Positions 13,911-52,700 of a DNA stretch of 64,000 bases are shown one piece after another. The stretch spans positions 806,001 to 870,000 of the forward strand of contig NZ_JAIUZR010000003.1 of the NCBI RefSeq assembly GCF_020171465.1, given 5' to 3'. The translations under genes and the position numbers were made by a program. Position 1 is the first letter of the stretch. Every line of letters starts with the position of its first letter. This DNA is from Lutimonas saemankumensis (GTDB lineage Bacteria; Bacteroidota; Bacteroidia; Flavobacteriales; Flavobacteriaceae). Below the pieces are notes generated by a model. It had not been told where the DNA came from and did not search any database. It was given only the letters and a program-made list of their open reading frames with translations.

Positions 13911-15374
13911 TTATTTATTTACAAATTGAAAATTTCTTTCAGACTCTTCGTTTTGAAATTTATCTATTCGTTTAACTTCTTTTTTGTATCCTAAAATTTT
14001 AAGTAATTCTTCACTTTTTTGTTCTTCACGAAATAGTTGAGTATTAATATTTCCCTTCTCATCTTTACTAATTAATACATGCTTCGGGGCAGGAATCAGG
14101 CAGTGTTGTAAACCTCCATACCCACCGATTGTATCTTGATAAGCTCCAATACTAAAAAACCCTACATATAATGGTTTATCCTTGTCGTACTTAGGCAAGT
14201 ATATCGCGTTGATGTGTTGCTCACTATTGTAATAATCATCACTATCGCATGTTAAACCACCGAGCAATACGCGTTCATAGTCACAATCCCATCTATTGAT
14301 TGGAAGCATGATAAACCTTTTATTTATAGCCCATGTATCGGGAAGAGTAGTAATGAATGAAGAATTGATTATGTTCCATTTCTCTCTGTCATTTTGTTGT
14401 TTCTGATACAGAACCTCATAGATAGCTCCACCACTTTCTCCAACGGTAAAGCTTCCAAATTCAGTAAAAATATTCGGAACGGGAACTCCTTCTTCCTCAC
14501 AGGCTAATTTGATTTGGTTTATGATTTCATCAATCATGTAGGCATAATCAAAATCAAATGCTAAAGAGGTTTTAATGGGAAAGCCACCTCCAATATTCAG
14601 GCTATCCAATGAAGGGCAGATCTTTTTTAGACTTGTATATACTTTTAAACATTTTAAAAGTTCATTCCAATAATAGGCATTGTCATTGATACCCGTGTTA
14701 ATGAAGAAATGAAGCATTTTAAGCTGAATCTTGGGATTGTATTTGATCTGACTCTCGTAAAAAGGAACTATATTCTTGTAGCCAATACCTAATCTTGAGG
14801 TGTAAAATTCAAACTTTGGCTCTTCTTCTGAAGCGATTCTGATACCAATATTAAAATTCTTGTGAATTTCACTTGACAACAGATCAATTTCCTCAAAATT
14901 ATCAATTATGGGTATGCAATTTAGATGCCCGTCGTTTACAAGTCTCGCAATGTTGGTAATGTATTGTTCCCTTTTGAAACCGTTACATATAATAAAGGTA
15001 TCATTCTTTATTTTTCCAGAATTTTTAAGGCTTTCTACAATGTCGATATCAAATGCTGAAGATGTTTCGATATGTATGTCATTCTTCAACGCTTCATGAA
15101 GCACATGCTTAAAATGTGAGCTCTTGGTACAATAACAATATTTGTAAACACCCTGATAATCGTGCTTTCTAATTGCATCTTTAAACCATTTTTTTGCTCT
15201 GTTTATGTTTTCGGATATTCTGGGTAGATAGGTAAACTTCAAAGGTGACCCATAAACTTCAACTAGTTTATTTAAGTCAATGTCATGAAACAATAATTTA
15301 TTATCAACCAGGTCAAATTCAGGTTGTGGAAAATCAAAAGTCTGATTGATAAAATCAATATATTTTGTATTCAT
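13911..15374 (-). CDS. speA: Arginine decarboxylase (alanine racemase-fold, PLP)
   Basis: A 487-residue PLP-dependent decarboxylase of the alanine-racemase fold (fold III). The Schiff-base lysine is in YCYCTKSSHF (K84), the phosphate-binding glycines are in LNIGGGFPIK, a substrate segment is FTEFGSFTVGESG, and the catalytic Cys is in GGLTCDSDDYY. This compact form lacks the extra domains of the ~650-residue E. coli SpeA but is normal for Bacteroidota. It should make agmatine from arginine. It is first in the operon with agmatinase (3-base gap) and the deoxyhypusine-synthase-like gene. The 5' side is a long gene-free stretch with hairpins. Diaminopimelate or ornithine specificity is possible but fits the agmatinase neighbour less well. 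Confidence 0.85.
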   Translation of the reverse strand: MNTKYIDFINQTFDFPQPEFDLVDNKLLFHDIDLNKLVEVYGSPLKFTYLPRISENINRAKKWFKDAIRKHDYQGVYKYCYCTKSSHFKHVLHEALKNDIHIETSSAFDIDIVESLKNSGKIKNDTFIICNGFKREQYITNIARLVNDGHLNCIPIIDNFEEIDLLSSEIHKNFNIGIRIASEEEPKFEFYTSRLGIGYKNIVPFYESQIKYNPKIQLKMLHFFINTGINDNAYYWNELLKCLKVYTSLKKICPSLDSLNIGGGFPIKTSLAFDFDYAYMIDEIINQIKLACEEEGVPVPNIFTEFGSFTVGESGGAIYEVLYQKQQNDREKWNIINSSFITTLPDTWAINKRFIMLPINRWDCDYERVLLGGLTCDSDDYYNSEQHINAIYLPKYDKDKPLYVGFFSIGAYQDTIGGYGGLQHCLIPAPKHVLISKDEKGNINTQLFREEQKSEELLKILGYKKEVKRIDKFQNEESERNFQFVNK

Positions 15375-15768
15375 CTTAGATTTTTAAAAGTTAATAGAAT
15401 ATAAGGGGAGCGATAACTGCCTCATATAGAGAAGTCTAATACTTTTATTAAATCATAATATGATACTGTATTTCTAAAATGAAACACGAAATAATTTGCG
15501 CGGAAAAATAATTTACAGCGGAAGTTAGCTTTAAATTTCGGTCGCTTACACCATAAGCTGCTTTTGAATTTGACTTCCTAATTTTCAAAAGCCCGAACGT
15601 AAAAACAGTTTTCACTTTGTTCAGCTAAAAGCTCCGTTTGATAAAAGCTTCAGTTTACAAATGAAACACAAAAAAATGAATAAAAAAAATAAATATTTTC
15701 CAGACCATTACTTAAGATGAAAATTCACAACTCAAGACTGGTACAACATTGCGGACATATTGACAATG
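15375..15768. other. Gene-free leader side of the polyamine operon
   Basis: Together with the adjacent tandem array this forms about 800 bases without a gene between speA and tRNA-Arg. I see no ORF with coding character and no clear TAnnTTTG box on the minus strand near speA. The stretch is AT-rich and contains the 9-base inverted repeat annotated separately. Part of it may be the untranslated leader of the polyamine operon. Confidence 0.5.
15560..15592. repeat. 9-base inverted repeat upstream of speA
   Basis: GCTTTTGAA at 15560-15568 pairs perfectly with TTCAAAAGC at 15584-15592 across a 15-base loop. It lies about 190 bases upstream of the speA start. No T tract follows on the minus strand, so it is not a classical terminator. 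It could be an mRNA leader hairpin or an operator. Confidence 0.45.
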
Positions 15769-16092
15769 AAAGGATTACTCGCGTGATCCTAAGTGCAATC
15801 CATTTTGAGAATGAAAGGCCCACATCCGTCTAACGACGGATAATTCCTTAAAGGATTACTCGTGTGATCCTAAATGCAATCCATTTTGAGAATGAAAGGC
15901 CCTCATCCGTCTAACGACGGATAATTCCTTAAAGGATTACTCGTGTGATCCTAAATGCAATCCATTTTGAGAATGAAAGGCCCACATCCGTCTAACGACG
16001 GATAATTCCTTAAAGGATTACTCGCGTGATCCTAAGTGCAATCCATTTTGAGAATAAAAGGCCCACATCCGTCTAAAGACGGATAGATCCTT
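15769..16092. repeat. Four tandem 81-base units, each with two hairpins
   Basis: Exact period of 81 bases: copies start at 15769, 15850, 15931 and 16012 with no spacer. Each copy holds hairpin 1 (AGGATTAC, a TCGC or TCGT loop, GTGATCCT; one U-G pair) and hairpin 2 (ATCCGTC, a TAAC or TAAA loop, GACGGAT). Only seven of 81 positions vary among copies (14, 25, 45, 54, 66, 75, 76), and none lies in a stem. Copies 1 and 4 share C14/G25; copies 2 and 3 share T14/A25. It lies between the terminator of tRNA-Arg and the polyamine operon. It is not CRISPR, since there are no unique spacers. Confidence 0.92.
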
Positions 16093-16144
16093 TTTATTTG
16101 TCGACTCCTTATAAAACCAAGGTTTTAACGGATTCTCCAAATAA

Positions 16145-16170
16145 AAAGGCCTCACTTTCGTGAGGCCTTT
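16145..16170 (-). terminator. Rho-independent terminator of tRNA-Arg
   Basis: AAAGGCCTCAC (16145-16155), loop TTTC, GTGAGGCCTTT (16160-16170): an 11-base perfect stem. On the minus strand it is followed by TTTTTATTT, and it lies just 13 bases beyond the 3' end of the minus-strand tRNA-Arg. Confidence 0.9.
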
Positions 16171-16182
16171 ACTATTCATCTG

Positions 16183-16256
16183 TGATCGCGATAGGATTCG
16201 AACCTATGACCGTCTGCTTAGAAGGCAGATGCTCTATCCAGCTGAGCTACGCGACC
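16183..16256 (-). tRNA. tRNA-Arg (anticodon TCT)
   Basis: A 74-base cloverleaf. The acceptor stem GGTCGCG pairs with CGCGATC (one G-U). It is followed by TAGCTCAGCTGGATAGAGC (D arm), the anticodon loop CTTCTAA between TCTGC and GCAGA, and the T arm ATAGG-TTCGAAT-CCTAT. The anticodon TCT reads AGA/AGG. The 3' CCA is not encoded. It has its own promoter and terminator. Confidence 0.96.
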
Positions 16257-49781: not shown

Positions 49782-52700
49782 CTACAAACTGTAAACATTG
49801 TCGTCAAAATTTTCATCCACCCTTGTTCCAAATGGATCAATTGAAATATACATTGGCTTATCTTTTACAATGATTTTAATCACAGTATCTTCTTTTTGAA
49901 TGGTATTCGATTCAAAATACAGAATAGAGCTTTCATCTTTTACATATGAGGGATGAGTCGTAAATACGCCAACCTTAATGGGCTCATTGATAGTTATTTG
50001 ACTAATTTTTCCTGTAGCGTTAGTTTCAAATCGCTTTGCTTTGATATTTAGCGAAACCTCATAAGTTCCATCCTCCAATTCTATATACGACCCTTCCTGG
50101 ACTGACAAGTCATAGGTTATCACCTTTTTGAACCAGTCGTCAATTAAGTGATGAAATTGATCGGGAGTTACCTGATAAATCTCCTCTAGAAATTCAATCG
50201 AATTAACTTCTAATTTATTGATGTTTCTATGTTTATCAGTCAAAGATTTCAAAACATTATTTACCAGATCCTCACCGATCAGGTCTCGCAATCCCATCAA
50301 AACCGTGTAAGCTTTTCCATACGAAATATATGCCTGACCAAACACCTTATATACCGGAGGTTCTGTTTCACTTGCCATGGACCTTCCGAAAAAGTATTTA
50401 CGCCTTGCATCTTTGCTAAGCTCGTATAAAGATCTTTTCCCAAACATCTTCTCCATCACAACAGCTTCGGTATATTTTGCAAACCCTTCAATAAACAGTG
50501 AGCCTCCCGCAACTGGTTTTGCCGATAAGGTATGGCCCCACCATTGGTGAGCAACTTCATGAATCGTTCTTTTTGCAACCAGATTAAACGTCTCCGGGTT
50601 ACTTACGTTGGTTAAATACAATTTATCTTCAACCATACTAATCACACCCGGATGTGCAAACCCTCCAAATCCCCAATATGAAGGTACTTCGGCTACTCTA
50701 ACATGATCAAAAGCATAATCTCCAAAATTTTCCTGACAATAATCTAATGTTTGTTTCACACTTGTCTCAACATCGGCTATATTATAATCATGGTTTTCAT
50801 CATAGAACTGTTCGATTGAAATTCCTTTATAATCAATTTTTCTTGTGGCGTATCTGGCTGAAAAATAAGCAACCTCGGGTAAAATCTTGACATTAGTCTT
50901 GTAATGAAAGAAGTTTCTATTATTTTCAGACCATTGTTTTACCAATTTACCTGAACTAATGGCAGTTTGATCCGAAGAGGTGGAAATAATAGTTTCAAAT
51001 CTTATTTTTTCATATTTATTGTCTTCTAATACGATATGTTCGTCTGAATTATCTTCTTCCTCTCTTTCAGGCAGGTTTCTTTTTTTACGTTCTGTTCTAT
51101 CTGAAATCTCCATTCCTTTGGTATAGCCTAAAATGGGCTCAAAATTCCCTAAACGGTTTATATAAGTTCCGTTATTCACTATTGAATTGTCTTCTTCATA
51201 GCCCTTTACCTGCTTTTTTAATATATAAGTCATCCTCACAGAATCATTAACTTCCAGGGGCCTGTCATATTTAAACAAATAGGTTCCATGCACCGAATCA
51301 TGATCAACCAATCGGGCATTTTGTATACTTACATTTTCCATGGCAACTCTTTCCGTTATAAACAGGTTTGTCAAAGGATGATCACTTTTATTCTTTAATA
51401 TATAGTCAGCTCTGACTAAATACATCCTTTGCTCCGGATATATATCCACTTCTGTCTTTTTTGAAGTGGGATACAACCTTTCGATGCTTTCATATCTCTT
51501 GAACTTAAGCTCATATTCTTCTCTAAGCTGCAATTGATCACTTACATTTTCATAGCCCGATACGATATTCAAGTTATAATAAGTCAAGCTTCCGGCTCCC
51601 AGAAATAAGGCAATTAAGGTAACCATAGTAAACTTTTGAACTTTTGTCCATTCCATTGTAAGTTGCTTTAGCTTAAGGCGAAAACCAGATTCTACTCCCC
51701 TATTCCAGATCTTAAAAGATAAAACAGTCAATATCAAACCAAAAGCCATCCAATACAAGGCCAGGTGGTCAAACAGATTCGAAATACCATCAAATCCATC
51801 CATATTAGTGTATTCAATTCTAGGTAAAAATCCGAGACTTGTCAATGGGTGTTCCAATCGCAATACGTCGGATTTTATACTGAGGATCACAATGAAACCG
51901 AAAATTCCCATTCCCATAAATTTGTTCTTCGCCAAACTATGGATGAATAAGGCAATCATACTAAATATGGCCGGCTGCAGTCCATAGTGATAATATAAAG
52001 TGGAATAAAGGTCAATTTCATAGTTTGAATAACCCAGTACAAACTGGAATCCGATGCATATTACAATACCCGTAGAAATCAAAATTGCCGGTAGCATGAG
52101 CAAGGCCGCAAATTTTGACAAAAAGAACACCCAGTTCTTTACCGGTGTTGCGTCGACAATTGAATTGAAATTAAAATTGCGTTCTCTCCAGACAATGTCG
52201 GCACTGTAAAAGACAATTAAAATCAGGCTAAAAATAGTTAAAGCGTCAACGATCAAGCCCATTAACTGATTCGTAAATGGAAGTAAACTAACACCATACT
52301 CACCTCCTTTTACCGCAGTTGCGTAAAGTTCTACGAATACAATGAACAACCACATGATCAACACCGCGATAAAAGGCAAACTTTTAAAAACACTTTTTAA
52401 TTCTAATTTCAGCAAAAAGAAAAATGCTGATTTCTGGGCCATCAAACCGTGAACCGTATCCAACGGCCTGTAGGATATCAATTGTTTGTTGCCTGTTTTT
52501 ACCCTTTTTTCTTTTTTTACCCTTTTGGTTATTTTTCGAAAGGAAAATACCTTGTAGGTTATTGTTAAAATTACGACGGATACTAAAATCCAGACAAGCC
52601 TGTTCCATAAAAATAATCCGGAAAAGGATAATAACTGTGTATTCTTTTGATATGGGGTCCAGTATTGAGTCTGTTCAAAAAATGCCGCAATACCGAAAGG

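Follow-up and report, generated by a model that had tools for sequence, protein, structure and literature searches.

A four-copy repeat array facing a tRNA-Arg gene of Lutimonas saemankumensis, probably the multiplied arm of a gene-less integrative element

Structure of the array and its surroundings

The window, that is the whole stretch of 64,000 nucleotides of the Lutimonas saemankumensis genome analysed here, carries at positions 15769–16092 a tandem array of four 81-bp units (units 1 to 4: 15769–15849, 15850–15930, 15931–16011 and 16012–16092, all on the plus strand), to which Tandem Repeats Finder assigned a period of 81, 4.0 copies, 95% matches and 0% indels (score 585). The units abut head to tail without spacers, and no ORF of 60 or more amino acids lies over the array; an earlier note on this DNA, which had described four head-to-tail copies with an exact 81-base period that are neither CRISPR nor coding, was right on these points. 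Each unit starts with a T-arm-like hairpin (GGATTA..TGATCC), here called hp1, with an 8-bp stem and a 4-base loop (15771–15790, 15852–15871, 15933–15952 and 16014–16033), followed by the core TTTTGAGAAT and by a second hairpin, hp2, with a 7-bp stem (15824–15841, 15905–15922, 15986–16003 and 16067–16084); in unit 1 a stretch resembling a tRNA 3′ end was marked between the two. Seven columns vary among the four copies (unit positions 14, 25, 45, 54, 66, 75 and 76), and as the note had observed, none falls in the 30 stem positions while positions 14 and 66 are in the loops of the two hairpins. Seven random sites would miss 30 of 81 unit positions with P = 0.033, so this argument for selection on the stems is weak, as the note itself had called it.

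All four units folded better than shuffled sequences on both strands, the plus strand giving the stronger signal (z of -3.4 to -3.9, versus -1.8 to -3.0 on the minus strand). Unit 4, the last copy, is a terminator-like hairpin on the plus strand and ends in a T-run (16089–16100), which is missing from the first three copies and also forms the left arm of a central palindrome. Within the palindrome lies a small hairpin, AAAACC aa GGTTTT (16113–16126), whose pairing is kept in the related genome G253 with a different sequence, and its right arm is CAAATAAAAAGG (16138–16149). Next in order, and convergent with the array, come the intrinsic terminator (16145–16170, minus strand) and the gene (16183–16256, minus strand; Rfam tRNA, 72.1 bits) of a tRNA-Arg with anticodon TCT. 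Unit 4 through the tRNA (16012–16256) folded with a z of -6.26 into hp1, an outer stem between unit and tRNA trailer (5′ side GAGAATAAAAGGCC, 16050–16063, pairing with 16164–16180), hp2, the palindrome and the tRNA terminator.

DNA similarity searches found no second copy of the array sequence in its own genome and no match in a phage collection. Rfam 15 (including Flavo-1), at the curated gathering thresholds, placed the array in no family and returned only three tRNAs from the 64 kb; a sub-threshold search gave no match wholly inside the array, some matches overlapping its end, and the better-scoring ones proved to be the terminator region. No RYYYAAC/GTTRRRY boxes, as in integron attC sites, were noticed by eye at the junction. 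A search of the same genome for 16S rRNA with Rfam RF00177, intended for comparing hp1 with the rRNA 3′ end, gave no match.

Association with tRNA genes

DNA search of 397 genomes of the family revealed, in one congeneric species, a related array (79-bp period) that faces the same tRNA; further search in the genus added a single copy in G025 and two diverged ones in G402, likewise opposite tRNA-Arg(TCT). The gene on the other side changes among relatives, with a MarC-like ORF in G253 and a FabH-like one in G402 (our readings); since the left-hand gene differs in these two genomes, the conserved neighbour of the array is tRNA-Arg and not speA. Judged from these neighbourhoods, the array belongs to the facing tRNA-Arg(TCT) gene and not to the polyamine operon.

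A covariance model built from ten units matched 67 of the 397 family genomes. A tRNA finder run on the fetched surroundings placed a tRNA or tmRNA gene in the locus for 103 of 137 matches, and all 103 were convergent; counted by locus, 67 of 97 contained such a gene, with the nearest copy 70–100 nt away in 47 of the 67. The RNAs faced were tRNA-Arg (four anticodons), Val, Tyr and Pro, and tmRNA once; a single Met match (L115) was judged to be due to chance and excluded from the tests. Among the 34 matches with no tRNA in the locus, inspection by eye found many with a truncated tRNA or tmRNA 3′ end and about eight A/T-rich chance matches. Tandem copies were present in 17 genomes, for example nine copies of 107 bp with 99% identity; other arrays adjoin Pro, Val and Tyr tRNAs, and several matches sit at contig ends. 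Two of the loci showed further repeats: at L042 (about 945–1020) a long run of the heptamer CCGACTA precedes an array of eight copies, in which two unit types alternate, at a tRNA-Val, and L039 (2604–2818) has a tRNA-linked array of another sort, four perfect 54-bp tandem repeats that start where a tRNA-Pro gene has its 5′ end (CTACACCCCGAAGG...).

Independently of the model, named genomes were scanned for the pattern CAGGATTACT N{2,14} GTGATCCTGA, which yielded 84 stretches, 80 of which were analysed. When these were divided by us into Bacteroidota and others from the record titles, a convergent tRNA lay within 450 nt in 43 of 56 Bacteroidota loci versus 1 of 24 other loci; in the former it was mostly tRNA-Pro(TGG) at 130–150 nt, and the taxa with a tRNA included Flavobacteriaceae, Cryomorphaceae, Roseivirga and a Bacteroidales MAG (tRNA-Met). 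Phylum-wide, the model matched 13 of 394 genomes, eight of them outside the family; three of the eight look real and face tRNA-Arg, and five look like chance. One contig filed as a Rhizobium MAG (L251) bears a typical unit at a tRNA-Pro, by mis-binning or transfer. Within the genome of the window itself, a survey of 33 tRNA flanks found a like arrangement at tRNA-Ala(GGC) and tRNA-Val(GAC), with hp1-like hairpins (GGGATTAGCTGCGCTGATCCC; TGGATTACTGGCGTGATCCA); Arg(TCT) scored lower (z 2.3), Pro scored on an A/T-rich trailer, Tyr was doubtful, and most of the 33 flanks showed no such arrangement.

Inverted copy of the tRNA 3′ end

Read on the plus strand and starting with the 3′ arm of hp1, the element aligns with its own tRNA over the 3′ end, the trailer and the start of the terminator. 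In 60 loci the alignment score with the own locus was 32.8, versus 21.1 (sd 0.55) with the tRNAs permuted, and none of 20,000 permutations reached the own value. With the T-stem removed and the pattern-scan loci restricted to those at a distance of 110–160 nt, 93 loci gave 27.4 versus 17.3 (sd 0.39), again with 0/20,000 reaching it; permutation restricted to loci of one anticodon gave 19.3 (sd 0.44; 0/20,000). The 5′ arm of hp1 was identical to the own T-stem at 3.98 of 5 positions, versus 3.64 when permuted within amino-acid type (0/20,000). Caution applies to these comparisons and to the hairpin counts below, as the loci were found with a model containing hp1.

Each unit is best explained, on these alignments, as an inverted and diverged copy of the 3′ end, trailer and terminator of its own tRNA. 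Unit 4 (16012–16092) accordingly reads as an inverted pseudo-copy of the 3′ end of tRNA-Arg with its trailer and terminator, the 3′ end of the gene at 16183–16256 being the authentic copy. Across the aligned loci both arms of the element change together from locus to locus; such co-variation could stem from gene conversion or from selection for base-pairing, without mobility.

Conservation of the hairpins

The fifth pair of hp1 is U.G (T.G in DNA) in 51 of 59 loci, nearly invariant, which is C.A on the other strand. Its inner stem, which is not tRNA-derived, shows four types of pair and is Watson-Crick paired in 51 of 54 loci, while shuffles gave a mean of 24.4 and 0/20,000 reached 51. In hp2, six pairs have double changes among 10 sequences. 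The pairing retained in hp1 supports the view that the hairpins are real and selected as hairpins. An ordinary double-stranded core site of a tyrosine recombinase is an unlikely role for hp1, given a loop that ranges in length from a few to about 30 nt. It probably acts as a folded single strand, either ssDNA or RNA, because the conserved mismatch is U.G on one strand only.

A folded RNA raises the alternative that the array encodes a plus-strand small RNA, consisting of hp1, the single-stranded core TTTTGAGAAT and hp2 as terminator, which would imitate a pre-tRNA 3′ end (T-arm-like hairpin, acceptor strand and trailer) and decoy a tRNA 3′-processing factor, with the tandem copies raising the dose. 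The better folding of the plus strand, the one-sided U.G pair, the covariation of hp2, the T-run that ends unit 4 and the core, which is invariant or nearly so in the genus set, are all as expected of such an RNA. The T-run is lacking in the first three copies, however, hp2 is also simply the mirrored tRNA terminator, and the displaced tRNA ends, stacks and sister-genome insertions described below require a DNA event. We therefore regard a decoy RNA as an unlikely account of the array, although it may coexist with an origin as a DNA element. An hp1 that worked at the RNA level would mimic pre-tRNA 3′ ends and co-evolve with its own tRNA.

Displaced tRNA ends and stacked elements

In relatives the unit starts exactly where an intact tRNA 3′ end, in some cases with its own terminator, was displaced. 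In 9 of 60 loci the sequence ahead of hp1 agrees with the acceptor strand of the adjacent tRNA (at least 6 of 8 nt), a recognisable displaced acceptor being missing in the other 51. At least four displaced ends (L060, L065, L082 and L120) keep their own trailer and terminator hairpin, which shows that an intact tRNA 3′ end was pushed aside there and another put in its place. In L060, L065 and L120 the terminator of the displaced end differs from the one now beside the tRNA, and the displaced copy matches the authentic one in the tRNA part while the inverted copy is far more diverged. In the window the displaced 3′ end is reduced to AAAGGATT (15769–15776, plus strand), which from its sequence and from the complete displaced copies in relatives would be a T-stem remnant now serving as the 5′ arm of hp1. 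Nothing beyond it survives, and the insertion history of the window copy is therefore inferred from relatives.

Two genomes of one genus, G160 and G340, share 149 bp with 96% identity that end exactly at ...GTGACCTCGCCAGGATT; past this point follow unrelated elements (67 of 142 aligned positions equal), and from the tRNA onward the sequences are orthologous again (518 bp, 90%). Synteny between genomes G316 and G126 extends to either side of tRNA-Arg(CCT) (1372 bp with 77.6% and 1356 bp with 70.9% identity), and the displaced 60 nt of G316 are 93.3% identical to the authentic flank of G126 versus 82.5% to that of G316 itself; by this comparison the syntenic locus carries an extra insert. Both L047 (G211) and L244 have a tRNA at which elements of different lineages are stacked, and an Owenweeksia MAG has at least four elements stacked at tRNA-Pro. 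At L059 (723–5733), one tRNA-Arg is faced by three hp1 sites with ORF6N, DUF2971 and HipA/HipB-like genes in between, a stack that resembles a set of cassettes and includes genes of toxin-antitoxin type.

In two loci, L068 and L101, a displaced tmRNA and a displaced tRNA-Val end, respectively, are followed by ORFs with tyrosine-integrase N-terminal domains (PF13102; PF17293 in L101). The former is in the genome of the window (C4:841400-843100) and consists of the displaced tmRNA 3′ end GTGGAGATGGAGGGA, two hp1 units and a tyrosine-integrase-like ORF; it is an island in the tmRNA T-loop. We found no integrase linked to the mini-elements, and G116, which has elements, gave 0 matches to PF00589 (genome 96% complete). 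Several congeneric species share the element at one and the same tRNA, which looks like a long vertical stay rather than activity.

A local inverted triplication (ODIRA-like), in which the template is switched twice, at the T-arm hairpin and at that of the terminator, and gene conversion keeps the copies alike with no mobile element involved, would give the observed authentic-inverted-direct order with hairpins at both junctions. It would suit an inverted copy that tracks the trailer and terminator of its own locus, and the occurrence of the arrangement at only a few tRNAs of the window's genome. The displaced ends of L060, L065 and L120 are difficult to reconcile with it, as are the unrelated sequences that follow the same base in G160 and G340 and the two inverted-copy lineages stacked in G211, and we consider a triplication decidedly unlikely.

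Very improbable is a spread of REP/REPIN-like palindromes by an IS200-like (RAYT) transposase. A Y1 transposase ORF does lie directly beside two units in G250 (L057, 4634–5197; PF01797, E 2e-8), but PF01797 had 0 matches in the genome of the window and, of 47 element genomes searched, occurred in no more than 16, tblastn with the G250 protein found it in one of the loci searched, and the copies sit at tRNA 3′ ends and are not dispersed. The PF01797 distribution and the tblastn result led us to reject RAYT as the general agent.

A gene-less element in the tRNA T-loop

The 3′ ends of tRNA genes are the usual landing site of bacterial genomic islands. The array is probably the amplified outer arm of a miniature integrative element that has no genes and sits in the T-loop of tRNA-Arg(TCT), a reading built on the position, orientation, inverted copy, displaced ends and stacking documented above. 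In the loci of relatives, the element lies between the displaced tRNA 3′ end and the intact tRNA, to which it supplies the present 3′ end, trailer and terminator; its other arm is the inverted, diverged tRNA 3′ end whose T-arm has turned into hp1, and the whole flank therefore forms one long imperfect palindrome. We propose that the element would insert at the T-loop through tyrosine integrases of other mobile elements acting in trans, with hp1 used as a folded single strand, and that stacks would arise by repeated insertion. Unequal exchange or slippage between hp1/GGATT sites may then have multiplied the outer arm to 4 × 81 bp, the 81-bp units of the window presumably having lost the remainder of the displaced tRNA end.

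More tentatively, and with considerable doubt, such elements may form, across the phylum, a class of quasi-palindromic mobile elements without genes, about 110–190 bp long, that reside in the T-loops of tRNA and tmRNA genes and whose folded single strand is recognised by way of hp1, with the rtT repeats of E. coli as the Gammaproteobacterial branch. With the tRNA 3′ end present in both arms, the tRNA could be restored whichever way round the element integrates. If such a class exists, the E. coli rtT repeats, known for decades, would be explained. A widespread unannotated gene-less element at the insertion point of islands would account for the tandem repeats that end contigs in several assemblies; such elements would also give many natural att-site variants for studies of integrase specificity and offer a testable origin for rtT. 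The element would be, to our knowledge, the smallest tRNA-targeting integrative element. A literature search limited to open-licence PMC turned up no published description of such arrays.

Comparison with known systems

The closest known case in layout is rtT of E. coli tyrT/tyrV, 178-bp repeats that carry the tRNA-Tyr 3′ end and are associated with the RttR RNA (Rfam RtT). An RttR annotation is present at tyrT/tyrV of E. coli K-12, where behind the tRNA 3′ end we read first GCGGGGAAGGATGAG, its inverted copy, and then GAGTAATCCTTCCCCCACCACCA, its direct copy, the series being repeated. Both systems have tandem repeats behind a tRNA with direct-inverted-direct copies of its 3′ end, and the other-strand junction is GGATTACTC in E. 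coli as in the window. They differ in that the direct copy is mostly worn down in the Bacteroidota elements, whereas every E. coli rtT unit has the full tRNA 3′ end, and in that E. coli has a long loop between the two arms and RttR on the tRNA strand. Rfam RtT had no match in the window at the gathering score or at E ≤ 5. The likeness of rtT to the window array is one of layout, and homology of the two would be conjectural.

Integrase-less segments flanked by att sites are also known to stack at one site as cis-mobilizable elements (site-specific accretion). Those are kilobase-sized remnants of conjugative elements with cargo, whereas the mini-elements are non-coding and palindromic. A further case comes from Riemerella, which belongs to the same order of bacteria as the host of the window. 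In R. anatipestifer, an integrase was shown to insert at a 53-bp att site in an Arg-tRNA, beginning TCCTCATAGGG (PMC6764341). In our reading, the att start equals the T-loop boundary of the mini-elements and the 3′ part looks like a terminator hairpin; the likeness would lie in a tRNA-Arg 3′ part with terminator used as att site; the inserted DNA differs, as it is a 10-kb island (10K) with an integrase and cargo (PMC6764341).

Islands in tRNA and tmRNA genes, as defined by Islander, split their target and restore it, leaving a displaced fragment at the far end, with crossover in the T-loop (PMC4383910). The mini-elements resemble islands so defined in the restored target, relatives having an intact tRNA with its own terminator plus a displaced copy, and in the T-loop as crossover point. 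A displaced fragment at the far end is seen in relatives (9 of 60 by acceptor match), and in the window it is reduced to AAAGGATT. Islands as defined there must encode an integrase; the mini-element has neither integrase nor any other gene, measures about 110–190 bp and contains an inverted pseudo-copy of the target.

The polyamine operon and other repeats

That the array serves as a leader or protein-binding array of the divergent polyamine (speA) operon, as the note had suggested, is scarcely credible: the array lies some 400 bp in front of the ORF that starts at 15374 and a similar left flank is kept in G025, but it follows the tRNA where G253 and G402 have other left-hand genes, other arrays are found at Pro, Val and Tyr tRNAs, and synteny contradicts the link. 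Of the note's interpretation, then, the hairpins stand and the polyamine connection falls; an inverted copy lodged at a tRNA had not been considered, and the wider search for the unit that it had called for turned up none elsewhere in the genome by DNA similarity, and units facing tRNAs in relatives. The minus strand of 15375–15740 folded no better than shuffles (z -1.09). A stretch of the gap, 15480–15660 (GGTCGCTTACACCATAAGCTGCTTTTGAA...CAAAAGCCCGAACG), is kept in G025 (L017, about 1090–1210) and could be the leader of the speA operon. Elsewhere in the window, a short imperfect tandem repeat of 17–18 bp at 52496–52536 is unrelated to the array.
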